Part shown: piece by piece, positions 32,771 through 53,185 of the stretch
Numbering within the stretch: the stretch's first letter is position 1
Layout of the letters: the number at the start of each line of letters is the position of its first letter
Assembly: GCA_036001465.1 (NCBI GenBank)
Contig: DASYUH010000078.1
Coordinates: 1-64,000 of the forward strand
Origin: Candidatus Polarisedimenticolia bacterium
Lineage (GTDB): Bacteria; Acidobacteriota; Polarisedimenticolia; Gp22-AA2
DNA: 64,000 nt
Direction of reading: 5' to 3'
Notes under the pieces: model-generated
What the model was told of the DNA's origin: nothing
Databases searched by the model: none
The model's input: only the letters and a program-made list of their open reading frames with translations
Made by a program: the position numbers and the translations under genes

Positions 32771-33985
32771 CTATTTCTTGCGGGCGCCGCCCGCGCCGTG
32801 GGCGCGTGACAGATCGAAGACCGAGGCGCCCGGGCCGGACGCGGCGCCGCCCTGCGCGTTCTCGAACCCGGTCTTCAGGGTGCTCTCCATCTCCCGCTGC
32901 GCCACGTCGGCGGTCGACTCGATCCCCTGCAGCTTCAGCTTGAACTCGTCCGGGTTGCTGGCGCGGCGCAGCGCCTCCTCCATGGTGATCAGGTCCTTCT
33001 TGAACAGGCCGTAGATGGATTGATCGAAGGTCTGCATGCCGTACTGCGAGGTCCCCTGGGCGATCGCCTCGTGGATCAGCTTGGTCTTGTCCTTGTTCTC
33101 GATGCAGTCCCGCACGAAGTTGGTGATGCGCAGGACTTCCGCCGCCGGCACGCGGCCGTTGCCGTCGGCGCGCGGCAGGAGGCGCATCGAGATGACCGCC
33201 TTCAGCACGCTGGCCAGCTGCAGGCGGATCTGTTTCTGCTGGTGCGGCGGGAAGACCGAGATCACCCGGTTCACCGTCTCGGTGGCGTCGAGGGTGTGCA
33301 GCGTCGAGAACACCAGGTGGCCCGTCTCGGCCGCGGTCAGGGCGGTCTCGATCGTCTCGTAGTCCCGCATCTCGCCGACCAGGATGACGTCGGGGTCCTG
33401 CCGCAGGGCCGAGCGCAGCGCGGTGGCGAAGGATTTGGTGTCCACCTCCACCTCGCGCTGGTTCACCAGGCTCTTCTTGTCCCGGTGCAGGAACTCGATC
33501 GGGTCCTCGATGGTCATGACGTGCTCGGTGCGCATGTTGTTGATGTAGTCGATCATGGCGGCCAGGCAGGTGGACTTTCCGGACCCGGTGGTGCCGGTCA
33601 CGAGGATGAGCCCGCGGCGCTCGTCGGCGATCGTCTTCAGGACGGGGGGCAGGAGCAGGTCCTCGATGCTCAGGATCTTCGCCGGGATGACCCTCAGGAC
33701 CAGGCCGACGGTGCCGCGCTGCTGGAACACGTTGACGCGGAATCGCCCCAGCCCGGGGACCGAGTAGGCCAGGTCGATCTCGTAGTGATCCTTGAATTTC
33801 TGCTTCTGGCGACCGCTCATGATGCTGAACGCCATGGCGATGGTGTCTTCCTGGGACAGGCGGTTCAGCTCGGAGAGGGGTGTCAGGTGTCCGTTGATAC
33901 GGATCACGGGGTGGCTGCCGACCTTCAGGTGCAGGTCGGACGCCTTGCGCTCCGCCGCGATCTTCAGGAGATCATTGACGTGCAT
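32771..33985 (-). CDS. pilT: Type IV pilus retraction ATPase PilT
   Basis: Hexameric motor that disassembles pilin fibres, powering twitching. The Walker A motif is VTGTTGSGKST, the Asp box is MTIEDPIEF, Walker B lies in DPDVILVGEMRD, and the His box is VFSTLHTLDA. AIRNLIRE-like C-terminal residues are weakly kept, and an additional tail after 365 is rich in Gly and Ala, making it 404 residues. PilU-like function cannot be excluded. No other pilus genes are beside it; the gene stands alone with its own promoter. Confidence 0.93.
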   Translation of the reverse strand: MHVNDLLKIAAERKASDLHLKVGSHPVIRINGHLTPLSELNRLSQEDTIAMAFSIMSGRQKQKFKDHYEIDLAYSVPGLGRFRVNVFQQRGTVGLVLRVIPAKILSIEDLLLPPVLKTIADERRGLILVTGTTGSGKSTCLAAMIDYINNMRTEHVMTIEDPIEFLHRDKKSLVNQREVEVDTKSFATALRSALRQDPDVILVGEMRDYETIETALTAAETGHLVFSTLHTLDATETVNRVISVFPPHQQKQIRLQLASVLKAVISMRLLPRADGNGRVPAAEVLRITNFVRDCIENKDKTKLIHEAIAQGTSQYGMQTFDQSIYGLFKKDLITMEEALRRASNPDEFKLKLQGIESTADVAQREMESTLKTGFENAQGGAASGPGASVFDLSRAHGAGGARKK

Positions 33986-44928: not shown

Positions 44929-46551
44929 TCAGGGGCTGCCGATGCCCGATCGCAGAAACGCCGCGCGGAGCGCGGCGACTTGAAGAGCGGTCAGTATAGC
45001 ACAGCCCCAGGCGAAGAGATCGCCGCAGCGAGCGTACACGGTCCGATCGTGACGCGCGCGGATCGTCCCGCCAAGCACCGCGCTCTCCTCGATGCCGGTC
45101 CTCGCCAGGATGCGCCCGAACGGATCGATGAGGGCGCTGATCCCGGTGTTGGCGGCCCGCACCATGTAGCGGCGGTTCTCCGCCGCGCGCACCGCCGCCA
45201 TGGCCAGATGCTGGTAGGGGGCGGCCGTGCGGCCGAACCAGGCGTCATTCGTGATGTTCACCAGAAAGGCGGCGTCGCGGCCGGCCACCCGCCGGACGAT
45301 TTCGGGAAAGATGGCCTCGTAGCAGATGACGGTCCCGGCGCGGCCGACGGACGTCGGCAGGGGCTCCAGACGCGTTCCCGCATCGAACTCGCCGATCGAT
45401 CCGCTGACCATCCGGTTGACGAAGAAGAGCGCCCGGGCGAGCGGCACGTATTCGCCGAACGGCACCAGGTGGACCTTGTCGTAGGTCGCGCCCAGGGTCC
45501 CGTCGGCGCCGACGGCGAGGGCGCTGTTGTAGGCGCGAACGGTCTCGCCGGCCGCTCGATAGTCGACGCTCCCGACGATCAGGTCGGCGTGCAGCGAGCG
45601 CGCCAGATCCCCGAGAAAGGCGGCGTAGGCGGCGTCGGTCTCGACCCCCGGGCCGGACGCCCGGTCGCCACCCGGGCGGCGCACGGAGAACGGGCTCGAC
45701 GATTCGGGCCACACGATGAGCCGGGCCCCGGAGGACGCGGCCTGCCGGCTGAGGCGGGCCAGATCGGACAGAGTGCCCGCGGCCGCCTTCGGGTCCCATT
45801 TGTGGTCCTGCGCGACGTTGGCCTGGATGGCGGCGACCGGGATGGCGCCTCCGTCTCCGTCCGCCTCGTGCCCGGCCTCTCGCCCCAGGGCCAGCCTGCC
45901 CCCCATGAAGGACAAGGCCGACACGGCGATCAGGATCGCACCCGCTATCCGCGCCCGGGACGCGGCCGGCTGGAGGATCAGAAGCGCCCCTCCGGCATTC
46001 ACGGCCATGACCAGGAACGAGACCGCAAAGATCCCGCCCCACACCGCGGCCTGCAGGAGCGCCGGGTTCCGGTATTGCGTGTAGCCCAGGAGTCCCCAGG
46101 GGAACCCGGTCAGCAGGCGGGCGCGCGCGATTTCCAGCGCCACCCAGCTCACGGGCGCGAAGGCCAGGGCCACGGGTCCGTATCGCCGCCAGGCGACGCT
46201 GACGATCCAGGCGAACAGCGCAAAGAAGGTCGCCAGATAGAAGACCAGGAGCGCCTGCAGGAGCCAGGCTACCGGAAGCGGCAGTCCGCCGTAGGTCTCC
46301 ATGACTGCCGGAATCCAGTACAGCAGAATCGCGAAGAAGCTCCCGCCGCAGGCGTAGCCGCGGAGCAGGGCGGTTCCCTTTTCCGTGGCCTGGAGCGACA
46401 GGAGGAAGGGGATCAGCGCGACCAGGGCCAGGATGCCCCGGTCGGCAAGCGGATAGGCAAGCGCCAGGACCGCTCCCGAAGCGCACGCCCACAGCGTGCC
46501 ACGAAAACCGGCGTGAGGCGCCTTGCCGATCGCGGCGGGGCTATCTCTCAT
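44929..46551 (-). CDS. lnt: Apolipoprotein N-acyltransferase
   Basis: Inner-membrane enzyme adding the third acyl chain to lipoproteins. About six hydrophobic segments fill residues 15-215, then a nitrilase-like domain. Its triad is visible: Glu in IVWPESSSPF, Lys in YDKVHLVPFGEYVP and Cys in GTVICYEAIFPE. 540 residues. ATG 46551 overlaps the 3' end of the GspE-like gene by 11 bp. Its substrates include Pal and CpoB-type lipoproteins encoded in this window. Confidence 0.94.
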   Translation of the reverse strand: MRDSPAAIGKAPHAGFRGTLWACASGAVLALAYPLADRGILALVALIPFLLSLQATEKGTALLRGYACGGSFFAILLYWIPAVMETYGGLPLPVAWLLQALLVFYLATFFALFAWIVSVAWRRYGPVALAFAPVSWVALEIARARLLTGFPWGLLGYTQYRNPALLQAAVWGGIFAVSFLVMAVNAGGALLILQPAASRARIAGAILIAVSALSFMGGRLALGREAGHEADGDGGAIPVAAIQANVAQDHKWDPKAAAGTLSDLARLSRQAASSGARLIVWPESSSPFSVRRPGGDRASGPGVETDAAYAAFLGDLARSLHADLIVGSVDYRAAGETVRAYNSALAVGADGTLGATYDKVHLVPFGEYVPLARALFFVNRMVSGSIGEFDAGTRLEPLPTSVGRAGTVICYEAIFPEIVRRVAGRDAAFLVNITNDAWFGRTAAPYQHLAMAAVRAAENRRYMVRAANTGISALIDPFGRILARTGIEESAVLGGTIRARHDRTVYARCGDLFAWGCAILTALQVAALRAAFLRSGIGSP

Positions 46552-48250
46552 GAAGCAGAAGACGGAGCGGTTCCCTGACGTCGACGATACCGGCCGCCGC
46601 CTTTCGCAGGCCGGCCAGACCGAGCGTCTCTGCTCCCCTGCGCACCCTCTCCCGGCGCAGGGCCGCGGCGGAGGCCTGGCGCTCGAACAGGCCGTCGTCC
46701 GGGGACGCCGCCATGAGCTCGAAGACCGGGTGGAGGCGGAGCAGTCCCGATCCCCGGCAGGCGGCGCACCCCTGGGCGGCACCGTACCGACCCTGGGGCG
46801 GTCGGCGGTGGGGGGGCGCGGGAGCCAGCAGGTCGACCAGATCCACGGGACGCCTGCACGCCGCGCAGAGCTCCTCCATGAGACGGATGGCGAGGATCCC
46901 TGAGAGCACCGGGCGCACCCGCCGGCCGAGCCCCGCGCGGAGAATCGACTCGACGGCGGCAGCCGCGTCGCTGGCCGGGGTGATCGTGGCCAGGACGATG
47001 CGCTGTACCGCCTGCTCGGCGGCGGCCGCGGCACGGCCTGGCTCGAGGAGGTCTGGAATCAGCACGATGTCCGGCGAGACCTGCAGGGCCCGATCGAGAC
47101 TGTCCGCGAAGGCGACCTCCTCTCCGGCGCGCGCCAGCGGGAAGGCCTCAAGCCCGGCCATCGCACCGGTGTCGCCGAGGCCGACGCGGCGCGGGCGGCG
47201 ACCGCCCAGCATGTCGAGCACGCAGCGGATCGCCGCCCCCGCGCCGAATGAATCCGCGGCCGCCATCACGAGAAGGCCTCGTCCGTCTTCGTCAAGCCGA
47301 TCGAGAAGGGGGACCAGTCCCGGAAGATCGTCCTGGATCTCCGGCCCCTTCAGGGTCGCGATCCGCTCATCCCGCAGATCGAGGGTGTAGGTGTCCCCCT
47401 CGAGCCCGGGGAGCGCCGAGACCGAGATCGCCACGCGCCGGGATTCGATCCGCAGCGTGAATCGCCCCACCTTGGGGATCACGCGGCCGCGCGCCGCCAT
47501 TCCAGACAGCCCCTCGATGAGGCGGGCCAGGCCCGGGTAGCTCCCGCGCTCCTGCACGGCCACCTCGTCGTCGACGTGCGGGCCGCTGAAGACGATGCGG
47601 ACGGCCCTCGGCTGCGGCTCGACCCGGATCGACCGCGCGCCGCGGCGGACCGCCTCGGCGGCGATCGCGCGCAGCCTGTCGGATGGCACCGCGTTCGCGC
47701 GCAACACTTCCGGCAGGACCGGGAGGATGCCCCGGCCGCGATCCGCCAGCACGAGGTGATTCTCGGCGCCCGGATAGTAGAAGACTCCGGTCTCGACCTC
47801 CGCGGGATAGAAACGGCGCAGCACTTCCGAGATGATCGACGGGGGGCAGATCAGGGGATCGACACGGAGACCGGTGAGCTCCTCCACGGCAGGGACCAGC
47901 GCGGGGACGTCGGCGGACGACAGGCCGAGGGCCAGGACCCCGTCCTCGACCCCGACCGGCACCATGCCGTAGTAGTGCGCGAGCCTTCCGGGAATCCGAT
48001 CGACCGGCGGGCGGGTGAGAAGCTCGCCGGCGAGCCCGGGCTGGAGGACCTCGAAATGGTCCTCGAGGAACAGGTGCAGGGAGGCCGGCGTCGCCAGCCC
48101 CATTTTCAAAAGGTTGTAGCCGAGCCGGCCGCCTCGGACCCGCTGCTCCTCCAGCCCGCTCGCGATCGCATGCCGGGTCGCGATGCCGGCCTCGATCAGG
48201 AGGTCGCCCAGGAGCCTGCGATCCTCGACCGGCGGGCGCCTGTCGCTCAT
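46541..48250 (-). CDS. GspE/PilB-family protein with lost ATPase motifs
   Basis: 569 residues with the layout of a secretion/pilus assembly ATPase: MshEN-like N domain (about 10-150), then a T2SSE-like core. The P loop is replaced: where GPTGSGKT is expected there is AAADSFGAGAA (about 330-340) with no Lys. The Walker B Glu region reads DIVLIPDLLEPG (394-405), and the His box reads IVLATITPAS (418-427) without His. The C-terminal zinc-type cysteine pairs remain (C462/C465 and C495/C498). It cannot be a normal ATPase; a structural or regulatory role is likely. The N domain may bind c-di-GMP, since a GGDEF gene is two genes upstream. Confidence 0.8.
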   Translation of the reverse strand: MSDRRPPVEDRRLLGDLLIEAGIATRHAIASGLEEQRVRGGRLGYNLLKMGLATPASLHLFLEDHFEVLQPGLAGELLTRPPVDRIPGRLAHYYGMVPVGVEDGVLALGLSSADVPALVPAVEELTGLRVDPLICPPSIISEVLRRFYPAEVETGVFYYPGAENHLVLADRGRGILPVLPEVLRANAVPSDRLRAIAAEAVRRGARSIRVEPQPRAVRIVFSGPHVDDEVAVQERGSYPGLARLIEGLSGMAARGRVIPKVGRFTLRIESRRVAISVSALPGLEGDTYTLDLRDERIATLKGPEIQDDLPGLVPLLDRLDEDGRGLLVMAAADSFGAGAAIRCVLDMLGGRRPRRVGLGDTGAMAGLEAFPLARAGEEVAFADSLDRALQVSPDIVLIPDLLEPGRAAAAAEQAVQRIVLATITPASDAAAAVESILRAGLGRRVRPVLSGILAIRLMEELCAACRRPVDLVDLLAPAPPHRRPPQGRYGAAQGCAACRGSGLLRLHPVFELMAASPDDGLFERQASAAALRRERVRRGAETLGLAGLRKAAAGIVDVREPLRLLLHER

Positions 48251-48251
48251 G

Positions 48252-48803
48252 TCAGTCCGCCCCCTCCAGGATCCACGCCGTCAGGTGCAAGTCCCGTCGG
48301 AGGATCTGCACCGCCGCCTCCGCCTCGGCGCGCGTACGGTAACGGGCGGCGCGCACCCGATAGACGACTGCGGTCTCCGTCCGGTCCTCCTGAACGATCG
48401 CCGGGAACCCGCGCGACGCGAGACGGGCCTTGAGCCGCCGAGCCGCGCCCAGGTCGCGCGTGGCGAGCGCCTGGACGACGTACCCCCCCTGCCCGGTGCG
48501 GCCCTGCCGGGAGGCGGCCCCTCCCTGGTCATCATTATTACTACGGCTGTCGGAGGGGAGCCCACCGGTCGGAGGGGGCGCCGGCTTGCCGCTGCCCAGA
48601 GTCTTGTAGAAGCTCAGGTCGCCGGGGAGGGACATGCTGTCTGGCCCGGCGCCCCGGGTCGACACCGCCGGATCGCCCGGCGGCGTCCCACCCGCTCCGC
48701 CCGTCCCCGCTCCGCGCCCGGCCCAGCGGGCCAGCCCCACCATGAGCCCCGCGACGATCACCACCTGGACCAGGAGCCTCTTGACGGAGGGCGGTCGCGT
48801 CAA
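48252..48803 (-). CDS. SPOR-domain protein
   Basis: 183 residues: one membrane segment (LLVQVVIVAGLMVGLA), a Pro/Gly/Ser-rich periplasmic linker, and a C-terminal SPOR-like domain (YVVQALATRDLGAARRLKARL, then VYRVRAARYRTRAEAEAAVQ). SPOR domains bind denuded peptidoglycan at division sites. The TTG start at 48803 overlaps the GGDEF stop. It sits one base before the GspE-like gene. Confidence 0.82.
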   Translation of the reverse strand: MTRPPSVKRLLVQVVIVAGLMVGLARWAGRGAGTGGAGGTPPGDPAVSTRGAGPDSMSLPGDLSFYKTLGSGKPAPPPTGGLPSDSRSNNDDQGGAASRQGRTGQGGYVVQALATRDLGAARRLKARLASRGFPAIVQEDRTETAVVYRVRAARYRTRAEAEAAVQILRRDLHLTAWILEGAD

Positions 48804-49849
48804 CGTTTCCCTCCCGCCGCCTGCGGGGAATCTTCGTCGGCCTCGGAGACCCCGATCGAGTTCTTGCCCGCCTGCTTGATCTTCTGCATCGCCTTGTCGG
48901 CGCATTTGATCAGCCCGAGGCTGGTGCGCGCGTGGTCCGGGTAGGCGGCGATGCCGAACGAGGCGGTCAGGGTCATTCCGGGCGTGTCGTCGACCAGGAA
49001 GGTCCGTCCCTGCAGCGATGTGCGAAGCCGCTCCGCGAGCTCGCAGGCCCCCTGCAGGTCGGTCTCCGGAAGCACGATGCAGAATTCGTCGCCGCCGTAG
49101 CGGAACACCTTGTCGCTGCCGCGGATCTCGCCGACCAGCCGCCGCGACACCTCCCGGAGTGCCTTGCTCCCCATGGAGTGGCCGAAGCGGTTGTTGATCT
49201 CCTTGAGATTGTCCATGTCGAGGAAGATGAGCGACAGCGGGGTCGAGTAGCGATGCGCCCGGTACACCTCCTCGCTCAGGAAGCGATCGAAATAGCGCCG
49301 GTTGTAGGACTCGGTCTGATCGTCCTTGATGATCAGCTCCTTGTAGCGCTCGACCAGGAGGGCGTTCAGGAGGGCCGGGATCAGCTCGGGCACGAGTCGC
49401 CCGATGCGCTCCTGGTCGGCCGCCGACAGGCCCTCCGTCTCGCGGGACAGGAGGAGCATTCCCAGTATCGCGCCGCCGCCGGGGAGCGGCATCGAGAGGA
49501 CCTGCTCGATGCCGAGGCGGCGCAGGGCCTCGGGGGCGCGCGCCGTCCGCGGCATGTACGAGGCCGGCGGGCCGGGGCCGCGAAGGTCGGCCAGGTCGAG
49601 CGTCAGGATTCCCTTGCGGCGCGGGTCGTCGGGCGGAATGTGTGCCGCCCTCAGATGAAAGGTGTCCTGCTCGCTGTCGTACAGATAGAGCAGGGCCCCT
49701 GTCGCCTGGACGGCCTCCATGCCGGCGCGGACGATGGCGTCCGCCACCACCGTGAGATCGAGCTGGCGGGCCACCCCCAGGGCGGCGCGTGCGATTCTCA
49801 GATCCTCTTCAAGCCTGTCCGTGCTCACGGGGTCTTCGCCCGGCGCCAC
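48800..49849 (-). CDS. GAF-GGDEF diguanylate cyclase
   Basis: A soluble protein with no membrane segment: a GAF-like sensor (about 20-165) followed by GGDEF. The active-site signature is intact (FRYGGDEFCIVL, 249-260), and an inhibitory site RGSD (243-246) lies five residues before it. It should make c-di-GMP from two GTP, with product feedback. GTG 49849 gives 349 residues; GTG 49828 is also possible. It is the only c-di-GMP gene in the window. Confidence 0.9.
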   Translation of the reverse strand: MAPGEDPVSTDRLEEDLRIARAALGVARQLDLTVVADAIVRAGMEAVQATGALLYLYDSEQDTFHLRAAHIPPDDPRRKGILTLDLADLRGPGPPASYMPRTARAPEALRRLGIEQVLSMPLPGGGAILGMLLLSRETEGLSAADQERIGRLVPELIPALLNALLVERYKELIIKDDQTESYNRRYFDRFLSEEVYRAHRYSTPLSLIFLDMDNLKEINNRFGHSMGSKALREVSRRLVGEIRGSDKVFRYGGDEFCIVLPETDLQGACELAERLRTSLQGRTFLVDDTPGMTLTASFGIAAYPDHARTSLGLIKCADKAMQKIKQAGKNSIGVSEADEDSPQAAGGKR

Positions 49850-49859
49850 GAGGGGCGCA

Positions 49860-50627
49860 TCAGACGATTTTCCGCTTCAGGGCGTCGAAAAGATCGATTG
49901 GGACCGGGAAGATGATGGTCGAATTCTTCTCGGTGGCGATCTCGGTCAGCGTCTGGAGGTAGCGCAGCTGCAGGGTCGTCGGGTTCTCCGACATCACGCC
50001 CGCCGCTTTCGCGAGCTGCGCCGACGCCTGGAACTCCCCCTCCGCGTGGATGATCTTGGCGCGCTTTTCGCGCTCCGCCTCTGCCTGCTTCGCCATGGCG
50101 CGCTGCATCTCCACCGGCAGGTCCACGTGCTTCACTTCTACCATCGACACCTTGATGCCCCAGGGATCGGTGTGGCGGTCGAGGATCTGCTGCAGCTCCG
50201 CGTTCAATCGCTCGCGCTGGCTCAGCAGGTCGTCGAGCTCGCACTGCCCCAGGACCGAACGCAGGGTCGTCTGCGCCAGCTGCGAGGTGGCGTAATGGTA
50301 CTGCTCAACCTCGACCACCGCTCTCTTGGGATCGATGACTCGGTAGTAGACCACCGCGTTCACCTTGACCGAGACGTTGTCGCGCGTGATCACGTCCTGC
50401 GACGGCACGTCGTGCACGATGGTCCTGAGGGAGATGCGCACCATCCGGTCGATCGGGAAGAACACGAAGGCGATCCCGGGCCCCTTGGCGGTCCCGAGCA
50501 GGCGCCCCAGGCGGAAGATGACCGCCCGCTCGTACTCGTTCAGGATCTTGATGCTCGAAATCATCCAGAACACGAAGGCGAACACGAAAAACAGAGCACC
50601 CGACCCCGCTCCCACTGCACCCATCAT
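49860..50627 (-). CDS. SPFH/band 7 protein (slipin)
   Basis: Stomatin-like membrane scaffold. An N-terminal membrane segment is followed by the SPFH domain ([42 protein letters not shown]) and a helical stretch rich in Ala and Glu ([21 protein letters not shown]). 255 residues. It lies 27 bp behind the NfeD-type protease, a partnership conserved throughout bacteria and archaea. Confidence 0.94.
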
Positions 50628-50654
50628 CGGCCTCCTTCGCGGATTACCGCGGTG

Positions 50655-51995
50655 TCAGGAAATCTCCTCGACTTCGATCGCCAGGTCCTGAACGCGCGTC
50701 ACGCGCACCGCGGTCCCCTTCGGGATCGGGCGCGCCGCCCGGGCGTTCCAGTACTCCCCGTGCACGAACACCCGTCCCCCGGGATCGAGGTCGGTCAGGG
50801 CCGTTCCACGCTCCCCCACCAGGCCCACGGACCCGGTCGTCGGCCTGCGCCGCGACACGCGGACCACCAGGGTCGTCAGGATGGCCATGATGACGCCGGC
50901 GGTCCCCGCGATCGACAGGATGGCCCAGCGCGCCACGCCGATGCCCGGCGCCGACGGTGCCCCCTTGAACAGCAGCATGGCGCCGAGGACCAGGCAGACG
51001 ATGCCGCCGATGGTCAGCGTCCCGTAGCTGGGCACCTTCAGCTCCAGCAGGAACATCGCGATCGCCAGGACCACGAGCGCCACGCCGACCCAGCTCATCG
51101 GCAGGATTTGCGAGGACAGGGCGAACAGGAGAAGGCAGACGCCGCCCACCACTCCCGGGGCGATCATCCCGGGATGGGTGAACTCGATGTACAGCCCGAC
51201 CACGCCGGCGAAGAGCAGGAAGAGCGCCACGGTCGGGTTCGCCAGGACGCTGAGCAGGCGCTCCCGCGTCGACATGTCCAGCGACACCACCCGCACGCGG
51301 CCGAGCCGCAGGGTCTCGGTGCGGCCATCGAACCGCCGGATCGTCTTGCCGTCGAGCACCGCGAGAATCTCTCCTTCGTCGCGGCAGACGTAGTCGATCA
51401 GCCGCAGCTTGAGCGCCTCGCGCTCCGTGAAGGCGCTGCTTTTGCGCACAATCTCCTCCGCAACCTTCTCGTTGCGGCCGCGGTTGCTCGCGAGGCTCCG
51501 CGCGTAGGCGGCGGCGTCGTTCTCGATCTTCGCCATCATCGGCGAGTCCTTCGGGATCTCCCCCATGGCCGCCACCGGATGGGCGGCGCCGATGCGGGTC
51601 CCGGGCGCCATCACCGCCACGTCCGCGGCGATGGTGATGAAGAAGCCGGCGGAGGCCGCCTTGCTGCCGTTGACGAACACCACCACCGGCACCCGCGACG
51701 AGGTGATGTCCCGGATCATCTCCTCGGTCGAGTTGAGCCAGCCCCCGGGCGTGTCGAGCTTGACGATCAGGAGCGCGGCGTCCTCGCGGTTGGCGCGCGC
51801 GATCGCCTCCTTGAGGAAGCGGGCGGTGATCGGGTGGATGGCGTCGTCGATGGTGACGGTCAGGACCAGCGCCTCGCCCGCCGTCGGGGACGGCGCCGGC
51901 GCGACGCCCCGGGCCGAGGCGGCGCAGGCGGCGATCGCCACGACGGCCAGGACCCTGAGCAGGGAGCCGGCCGGCCTCCTGGTGATCCGTCGCAT
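50655..51995 (-). CDS. NfeD-family membrane-bound serine protease
   Basis: Signal peptide or anchor at the N terminus. A ClpP-like protease domain has the Ser in NGSKAASAGFFITIAAD and a candidate base Lys in EKVAEEIVRKSSAF. Several membrane helices (about 230-370) follow, then a C-terminal NfeD OB-fold (TALTDLDPGGRVFVHGEYWNA). 446 residues, the long form. Family members cut near the C terminus of their partner stomatin. ATG 51995 shares a base with the aminotransferase stop. Confidence 0.92.
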   Translation of the reverse strand: MRRITRRPAGSLLRVLAVVAIAACAASARGVAPAPSPTAGEALVLTVTIDDAIHPITARFLKEAIARANREDAALLIVKLDTPGGWLNSTEEMIRDITSSRVPVVVFVNGSKAASAGFFITIAADVAVMAPGTRIGAAHPVAAMGEIPKDSPMMAKIENDAAAYARSLASNRGRNEKVAEEIVRKSSAFTEREALKLRLIDYVCRDEGEILAVLDGKTIRRFDGRTETLRLGRVRVVSLDMSTRERLLSVLANPTVALFLLFAGVVGLYIEFTHPGMIAPGVVGGVCLLLFALSSQILPMSWVGVALVVLAIAMFLLELKVPSYGTLTIGGIVCLVLGAMLLFKGAPSAPGIGVARWAILSIAGTAGVIMAILTTLVVRVSRRRPTTGSVGLVGERGTALTDLDPGGRVFVHGEYWNARAARPIPKGTAVRVTRVQDLAIEVEEIS

Positions 51996-53185
51996 CACGC
52001 GTCCCGCGCGCCGAGAAGGCCGCGCAGGCGCTCCACGCCGGCGCGGATCCGGTCGAGGCTCAGGGCGTAGGACAGGCGCACGAAGCCGGGCATGCCGAAC
52101 GCCTCCCCGGGGACGGTCGCCACACCGATCTCGGCCATCAGGCGGCGTCCGAAGTCGATCGATGTGGCGCAGCCGAGGGCGCCCATCGCCCCCGTGACGT
52201 TGGGGAAGACATAGAAGCTCCCCGGGGGCAGCATACAGGCAATCCCCCGGATCCGGTTGAGCGATCGGACCAGCTCGTCGCGCCGCCTCAGATACTCCTC
52301 GCGCATGGCGGCGACCGAGTCCTGAGGACCGCGCAGCGCCTCGACGGCGGCGGCCTGCGAGATCGAGGAGGTGTGCGTGGCGTCGTGCGACTGGATCTTG
52401 CGCAGCGCGTCGATGAGCGGGCGCGGCCCCAGCGCGTAGCCCACCCGCCAGCCGGTCATGGCGTAGGTCTTGGAGAGCGAGTTGACCAGGATCAGGCGGT
52501 CCTTCAGCCGGGCGCGCTGCGAGGCGAAGGAGGCGAAACGGCCGGGGCCGTAGTGAAAGGTGTCGTAGGTCTCGTCCGAGATCAGCCAGCAGCCGGACTT
52601 CGCGGCGTAGGCCGCCAGGCGCTCCACCTCGTCGGGAGGGATGACGGCGCCGCTCGGATTGCACGGGGAGTTCACGATGATCGCCCGGATCCCCCGGTGC
52701 GCATCGAGGTCGCGCGCGCGCGGCACGAATCCGTCGTCCTCGCGGGTCGTGACGATGACCGGTTCGGCGCCGCACAGCTTCACCTGCTCGGGGAACGACA
52801 CCCAGTACGGCGCGAAGATCGCCACGCGGTCGCCCGGATCCAGAAGCGCCATCGCCGTCAGGAACAGGACGTTCTTGCCGCCGCAGCCCGTGATCACCTC
52901 CTCCGGTCCCCAGGCGCCGCCCGGGGCGTCGCCGTAGCGGGCGGCGATGGCCCGGCGCAGTTCGAGGACACCGGCGGTGTCGGTGTAATGCGTCTGGTTG
53001 TTCGCGAGCGCCTTGACCGCCGCCTGCTTGATGTTCTCGGGCGTATCGAAGTCCGGCTCGCCGGGGCCGAAGTCGATGACGTCGACGCCGCGCTCCTTCA
53101 GCGCCCGGGCCTCCATCATCACGGCGAGCGTCGGCGAGACGCTCACCACCTCCAGCCGTCCCGCCAGTCGCGTGGAGTCGGACAT
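51995..53185 (-). CDS. Class I aminotransferase (AspB-like)
   Basis: PLP enzyme moving amino groups between amino and keto acids. The PLP Lys is in NSLSKTYAMTGWRVGYA, with NSPCNPSGA and SDETYDTF as the cofactor-binding blocks. 396 residues, similar to aspartate aminotransferases of the Ib type. The exact substrate cannot be read. It is coupled to coaD by a TGATG overlap. Confidence 0.92.
   Translation of the reverse strand: MSDSTRLAGRLEVVSVSPTLAVMMEARALKERGVDVIDFGPGEPDFDTPENIKQAAVKALANNQTHYTDTAGVLELRRAIAARYGDAPGGAWGPEEVITGCGGKNVLFLTAMALLDPGDRVAIFAPYWVSFPEQVKLCGAEPVIVTTREDDGFVPRARDLDAHRGIRAIIVNSPCNPSGAVIPPDEVERLAAYAAKSGCWLISDETYDTFHYGPGRFASFASQRARLKDRLILVNSLSKTYAMTGWRVGYALGPRPLIDALRKIQSHDATHTSSISQAAAVEALRGPQDSVAAMREEYLRRRDELVRSLNRIRGIACMLPPGSFYVFPNVTGAMGALGCATSIDFGRRLMAEIGVATVPGEAFGMPGFVRLSYALSLDRIRAGVERLRGLLGARDA

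Follow-up and report, generated by a model that had tools for sequence, protein, structure and literature searches.

A 569-residue protein encoded in the window (the whole stretch of 64,000 nucleotides analysed here) belongs, as judged from descent and predicted fold, to the GspE/PilB superfamily and consists of an MshEN domain, N2D, a RecA-like core and four zinc-type cysteines. Its residues indicate that it is not a working GspE/PilB-type assembly ATPase, given that Walker A, the catalytic Glu and both arginine fingers are missing, and we refer to it below as the dead protein. The gene is under purifying selection, has relatives in several families of the Acidobacteriota and commonly lies beside a SPOR gene. 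We propose, with a probability of roughly 0.45, that the dead protein may be a non-catalytic GspE/PilB-fold adaptor that works with the SPOR membrane protein, and we infer both this partnership and its output.

Sequence, predicted fold and operon

The dead gene and its neighbours, with the parts of the protein that are discussed below, are located in the window as follows.

44929-46551, minus strand: Lnt, apolipoprotein N-acyltransferase (Pfam LNT_N 3e-35, CN_hydrolase 2e-42)
46541-48250, minus strand: predicted catalytically dead GspE/PilB-family protein (ATG start, 569 aa, no internal stop)
46757-46867, minus strand: tetracysteine (zinc-type) motif, Cys 462, 465, 495 and 498, CxxC...CxxC, invariant in the family
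47042-47077, minus strand: former Walker B/catalytic Glu stretch, residues 392-403, SPDIVLIPDLLE
47237-47260, minus strand: former Walker A (P loop), residues 331-338, AADSFGAG; live ATPases read GPTGSGKT
48056-48211, minus strand: MshEN N-subdomain, residues 14-65, half-degenerate c-di-GMP motif with R9 to L and Q61 to H
48252-48803, minus strand: SPOR protein (Pfam SPOR 4e-13) with a short N-terminus, one hydrophobic TM-like stretch and the SPOR domain
48800-49849, minus strand: GAF-GGDEF diguanylate cyclase, RYGGDEF and RxxD I-site intact
49860-51998, minus strand: SPFH (slipin-like) and NfeD-like genes, upstream in the same operon, named from sequence and used as synteny anchors

Pfam recognizes T2SSE (2e-15) and MshEN (2e-8) in the dead protein, and the top PDB sequence match is Geobacter PilB (5zfr; 1e-28, residues 7-565), with an identity to live PilB and GspE proteins of only about 21-27%. 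An AlphaFold2 model built from an eight-sequence alignment is of moderate confidence (mean pLDDT 72), with the zinc region (residues 462-500) badly modelled. Foldseek places GspE, PilB and PilF at the top of its matches to this model (3.5e-18). A second structural aligner pairs the model with EpsE (Z 20.5, 326 aligned, rmsd 8.7), where the large rmsd is probably an effect of domain arrangement, and with the N-domains of PilB and MshE (Z about 10). The predicted fold is that of GspE/PilB and not a different one, and the four conserved cysteines appear to be the zinc-type module of the PilB/GspE clade.

Which elements of an assembly ATPase has the protein lost? The motifs were read from an alignment with the three live ATPases of its own genome, namely PilB (C86), a PilB-like protein (C22) and GspE (C84). 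The live GEIRD stretch is aligned with PDLLE, which puts an Asp at the catalytic Glu position, and orthologues have D, G, Q, R, C or A in this column. Neither His of the HIS box is left, and the ASP-box Glu is also lost. Among 25 aligned dead members of the wider family, none has Walker A (GxxxxGK[ST]) and none has a Glu at the catalytic column after Walker B. The arginine finger R271 (numbering of G. metallireducens PilB, from PMC5424180) is absent in 25/25 and R286 in 22/25, the latter being retained only in three proteins of family f2, and R257 at the PilB interface is conserved in 25/25. The sequence-only reading had described a GspE/PilB paralogue without its P-loop Lys, Walker B Glu and HIS box and with its N-terminal domain and cysteine pairs in place; the alignment confirms this description and adds the losses of R271 and R286.

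The dead gene is tightly coupled to its neighbours. The GGDEF and SPOR genes overlap by 4 nt (TTGA), 1 nt separates the SPOR gene from the dead gene, and the dead gene overlaps Lnt by 11 nt at the Lnt start. The likely SPOR start is a TTG at 48803 that overlaps the GGDEF stop and yields a protein of about 184 aa, not the 217-aa ORF. SPOR genes number only three in the genome. No gene for the platform protein T2SSF was found at the dead-gene locus, and the T2SSF genes of the genome lie only on C86 (with PilB) and C84 (with GspE). Likewise, no pilus or Gsp genes adjoin the dead gene in the loci read.

Other proteins of this kind are encoded in the same genome. A PilT-like ATPase with an intact GTTGSGKS, GEMRD and HIS box is located in the window at 32771-33985 (minus strand), some 13 kb away from the dead gene, and is a convenient live control. 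Another degenerate T2SSE protein (G000:C56; L056:5001-7334, minus) has 778 aa, a P loop that reads GGPATGRTT (Lys to Arg) and a long C-terminal region that is HD-like by eye and has no Pfam match; it is kept in 7/8 f1 genomes (54-71% identity) and is absent from the rest of the class. A third degenerate T2SSE protein (G000:C59; L055:6415-8577, plus) consists of a Cys-rich N-terminus, MshEN and T2SSE (5e-37) and has SSPPHNGLQTT in place of the P loop.

Conservation within the order

The dead gene is present in the same operon in 12/12 genomes of the order (Acidobacteriota, subgroup-22 MAGs; families f1 and f2), the records of which include Acidobacteria gp22 AA2/AA3/AA4, AA152 and PMV_2.74 MAGs, among others. 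Two copies (G002 and G007) are incomplete and end at contig ends. All full-length copies but one keep an open frame; the orthologue of G004 (L045, 9215-9291) is broken into two overlapping frames around residues 138-166. Within the stretch that each contig covers, the loci read have the order RecN-CoaD-aminotransferase-NfeD-SPFH-GGDEF-SPOR-dead ATPase-Lnt-PrfB-HrcA-GrpE-DnaK, in which RecN and CoaD were named by eye from sequence and from which NfeD and SPFH are missing in G009. Wherever the contig reaches, the GGDEF gene is located two genes upstream of the dead gene, and the GGDEF enzymes across the order look active from their motifs.

Omega (dN/dS, whole genes) is 0.04-0.38 overall, with values of 0.04-0.13 in six of nine pairs and of 0.27-0.38 in three f1 pairs in which dS is high. 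Conservation peaks in the MshEN domain (residues 121-140, mean 0.88) and the C-terminal tail and is at its minimum in the ATPase core (residues 361-380, 0.45). A local sequence error or a fresh pseudogene is ruled out because the full-length orthologues share the motif losses and their frames are open. The sequence-only view of an intact, tightly coupled frame that is no fresh pseudogene is supported, and orthologues with intact P loops, which that view had named as a refuting observation, were found neither in the order nor in the wider family.

Distribution and descent in the Acidobacteriota

Two profile searches of 396 phylum genomes, the second with a broader profile, detected full-length relatives of the dead protein in families f14 (8 genomes), f39 (4), f16 (2) and f31 (1). 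A clear score gap separates the full-length dead rows (566-794 bits) from ordinary PilB (331 bits or less). A distant member in f46 scores 327.7 bits, which is within the PilB range, and was recognised only from its motifs and its SPOR neighbour. The dead family is thus found in at least five further families of the phylum (f14, f39, f16, f31 and f46), which argues against an invention specific to the order.

Every member tested (the 25 aligned and that of f46) lacks both a functional Walker A and the catalytic Glu, and the degeneration is otherwise graded. The ASP-box Glu is retained in members outside the order, as is one HIS-box His in f14 and f39, and remnants of the P loop are seen in f31, which reads GPDGSGRT, and in f16, which has a Lys in the broken loop. 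A careful tree without f46 separates the dead rows from live PilB on one branch (support 100/100, 200/200 bootstrap trees), and the f46 row groups with the dead clade in a quick tree. The stem of the dead clade is long (1.55), so long-branch effects are possible, although the shared losses fit one origin of the clade. That the protein is both dead and selected is well supported.

Which neighbour accompanies the dead gene most faithfully? SPOR lies directly upstream of it in f1, f2, f16, f31 and f46, and a GGDEF gene upstream of SPOR was not found in the f16, f31 and f46 loci. SPOR, and not the diguanylate cyclase, is therefore the most constant partner of the dead gene. The GGDEF-SPOR-dead GspE-Lnt arrangement that the sequence-only reading had suggested looking for in relatives holds within the order, and in these three families SPOR and the dead gene stand together without GGDEF. 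Sister orders that lack the dead gene have GGDEF-SPOR-Lnt (e.g. G014, G025 and G020) or SPOR-Lnt (G017 and G022), which indicates that SPOR does not need the dead gene. Because SPOR and the dead gene occur elsewhere without GGDEF, and GGDEF-SPOR-Lnt occurs in sister orders without the dead gene, the four-gene block looks like a combination of these two units. An insertion of the dead gene between SPOR and Lnt in the ancestor of the order is weakened as an explanation by the presence of SPOR-dead gene(-Lnt) in f16 and f31, and an older presence followed by loss in the sister orders explains the distribution equally well.

The dead genes of f14 and f39 do not adjoin SPOR. In f14 (L121, L124) and f39 (L129, L130), a gene for a small protein of about 150 aa, which looks exported and has no Pfam match, precedes the dead gene, and an HU-type gene is located downstream of it in f14. 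In G016 (L076, 10161-11246), a frame that is LipA-like by eye (radical SAM, lipoate synthase) lies between SPOR and Lnt and occupies the spot of the dead ATPase in the order of the window.

Possible functions

What is the biological function of an assembly ATPase that has lost catalysis? In the adaptor model that we favour, a PilB/GspE-type assembly ATPase would have been duplicated early in the Acidobacteriota, and one copy would have become non-catalytic. This copy would retain the three-domain fold and the zinc module and would neither hydrolyse ATP nor lend catalytic residues to a neighbouring subunit. It may serve in the cytoplasm as an adaptor, perhaps still in a ring that the zinc module holds together, and be produced along with the single-pass SPOR membrane protein. 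The conserved MshEN and C-terminal surfaces would be its working parts, and the core would be a dead spacer. SPOR domains recognise denuded peptidoglycan at division or remodelling sites. With the SPOR periplasmic domain at such peptidoglycan, the adaptor could position an envelope or pilus-type machine at these sites or gate it. The N-terminal domain might dock to the membrane close to the SPOR protein, by analogy with GspE on GspL. The model draws on the loss of all cis and nearly all trans catalytic residues, the predicted fold, the single clade, the purifying selection and conservation pattern, the adjacency to SPOR and the T2SSF genes being found elsewhere in the genome. Precedents are available for N-terminal docking in the GspE-GspL and PilB-PilZ pairs (PMC8389850), for a zinc module that holds the hexamer conformation in EpsE (PMC5061722) and for signalling by an ATPase-deficient PilB (PMC5544727). 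The docking idea is weakened by the f1 SPOR protein, in which only about nine residues precede the TM stretch and offer a small dock. The pairing with SPOR is weakened by the f14 and f39 members, which are not beside SPOR, and by the persistence of GGDEF-SPOR-Lnt and SPOR-Lnt without the dead gene, and the moderate confidence of the structural model also counts against the adaptor.

A serious rival is that the dead protein regulates the type IV pilus or type II secretion machine of its own cell by mimicking nucleotide-free PilB or GspE, a role that we regard as possible but doubtful. The live motor would be damped or gated either through mixed rings or through the occupation of PilC/PilM-type partners. 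The rival is serious because PilB of Myxococcus can signal to EPS production even when deficient in ATPase activity, presumably with its nucleotide-free form as the active signal (PMC5544727). Furthermore, PilB, PilT, PilC and GspE are intact in the same genome, and the dead protein keeps the N-terminal domain, the zinc module and the interface residue R257. However, a mixed ring would contain broken sites, given the lost arginine fingers (R286 in all but three members) and the HIS box that is missing throughout the order, and both the low identity to live PilB/GspE and the lack of adjoining pilus genes in the loci read argue against such a regulator. That the protein contributes to catalysis in trans within mixed rings is also unlikely since the arginine fingers are gone.

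The sequence-only reading had instead suggested a scaffold that reads c-di-GMP and links the diguanylate cyclase upstream with the cell wall by way of SPOR. The tie to SPOR is strengthened by adjacency, whereas the reading of c-di-GMP is weakened, and we consider the combined proposal unlikely. In the numbering of VcMshE (PMC5013675), the window protein keeps L10, G11, G18, L29, Q32, R38, L39, G40, G47, L54 and L58, its tandem RLGxx..Q motifs retain their 5-residue spacing and most hydrophobic and Gly positions, and it narrowly passes the NCBIfam c-di-GMP motif model (39.6 against a cut-off of 38). G11, G18, L29, Q32, R38, G47 and L58 are retained throughout the order, in which the GGDEF neighbour is in place, and single R9 or Q32 changes in VcMshE lower binding at most about fivefold (PMC5013675). 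However, R9 is replaced by L, M, V, T or S in 25/25 dead rows and is R or K in 21/21 live PilBs, and Q61 is replaced by N, H, S, T, Y or K in 25/25 dead rows and is Q in 21/21 live PilBs. In addition, Gly40 is Cys in f2, most of the motif is lost in f16, and the dead gene is not linked to GGDEF outside the order. In Thermus PilF GSPII-A, the matching Gln positions and the motif-II Arg deviate, and c-di-GMP is bound only once these are restored (PMC12002112). Binding by the dead family is expected to be weak or none; it is least likely in f2 and f16 and may still occur in f1, given the narrow pass of the motif model. A GGDEF gene adjoining an MshEN gene is not by itself evidence for c-di-GMP reading.

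It is similarly unlikely that the protein forms a dead pilus-type ATPase ring that is anchored by SPOR and serves as a cytoplasmic scaffold placed by the state of the peptidoglycan, independently of pilus and type II secretion machines; if true, this would define a pseudo-motor family of the Acidobacteriota with a dead ring positioned by cell-wall state. The disfavoured view that the protein is a relic, left over from a copied pilus ATPase and on its way to being lost, could draw on the fast-evolving core and the one MAG with a broken frame but is highly improbable, given that all 12 genomes carry the gene, that the frames are otherwise open in full-length copies, that omega is well under 1 and that the same clade is dead in other lineages.

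Comparison with known systems

In the open-access literature, we found no description of dead PilB/GspE paralogues or of SPOR together with MshEN/GspE, and the type II/IV motor family seems to have no described pseudoenzymes there so far. The dead clade, which has one apparent origin and has been kept in several lineages of a large phylum of soil bacteria, usually beside SPOR, is well suited to asking which roles the non-motor parts of PilB and GspE play. It also allows one to ask whether the GspE/PilB fold can be an adaptor between the cytoplasm and the cell wall.

PilB, the extension ATPase of the type IVa pilus (Geobacter 5tsg/5tsh/5zfr), has the same order of MshEN, N2D, RecA core and tetracysteine and gives the top sequence match to the dead protein and one of its best fold matches. 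In contrast to PilB, the dead protein lacks Walker A, the catalytic Glu, the HIS box and the arginine fingers, its MshEN pocket differs, and pilus genes are not nearby. GspE/EpsE, the type II secretion ATPase (1p9r/1p9w), provides the highest structural Z, shares the zinc module and offers in its N-terminal docking domain a model for membrane recruitment of the dead protein. It differs in its catalytic motifs, which the dead protein has lost, and no Gsp genes are present at the dead-gene locus; the dead protein also has the ND0 subdomain, which is missing from V. cholerae EpsE (PMC8389850). NfrB-type glycosyltransferases likewise carry MshEN outside a working secretion motor, and the NfrB model matches residues 11-152, but MshEN is accompanied by a glycosyltransferase there and by a dead ATPase here. 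Finally, the N-domain of Xanthomonas PilB (7lko; Z about 10), an MshEN fold without the c-di-GMP motif, acts as a protein dock that binds PilZ (PMC8389850). Unlike the MshEN domain described here, it belongs to a live ATPase.
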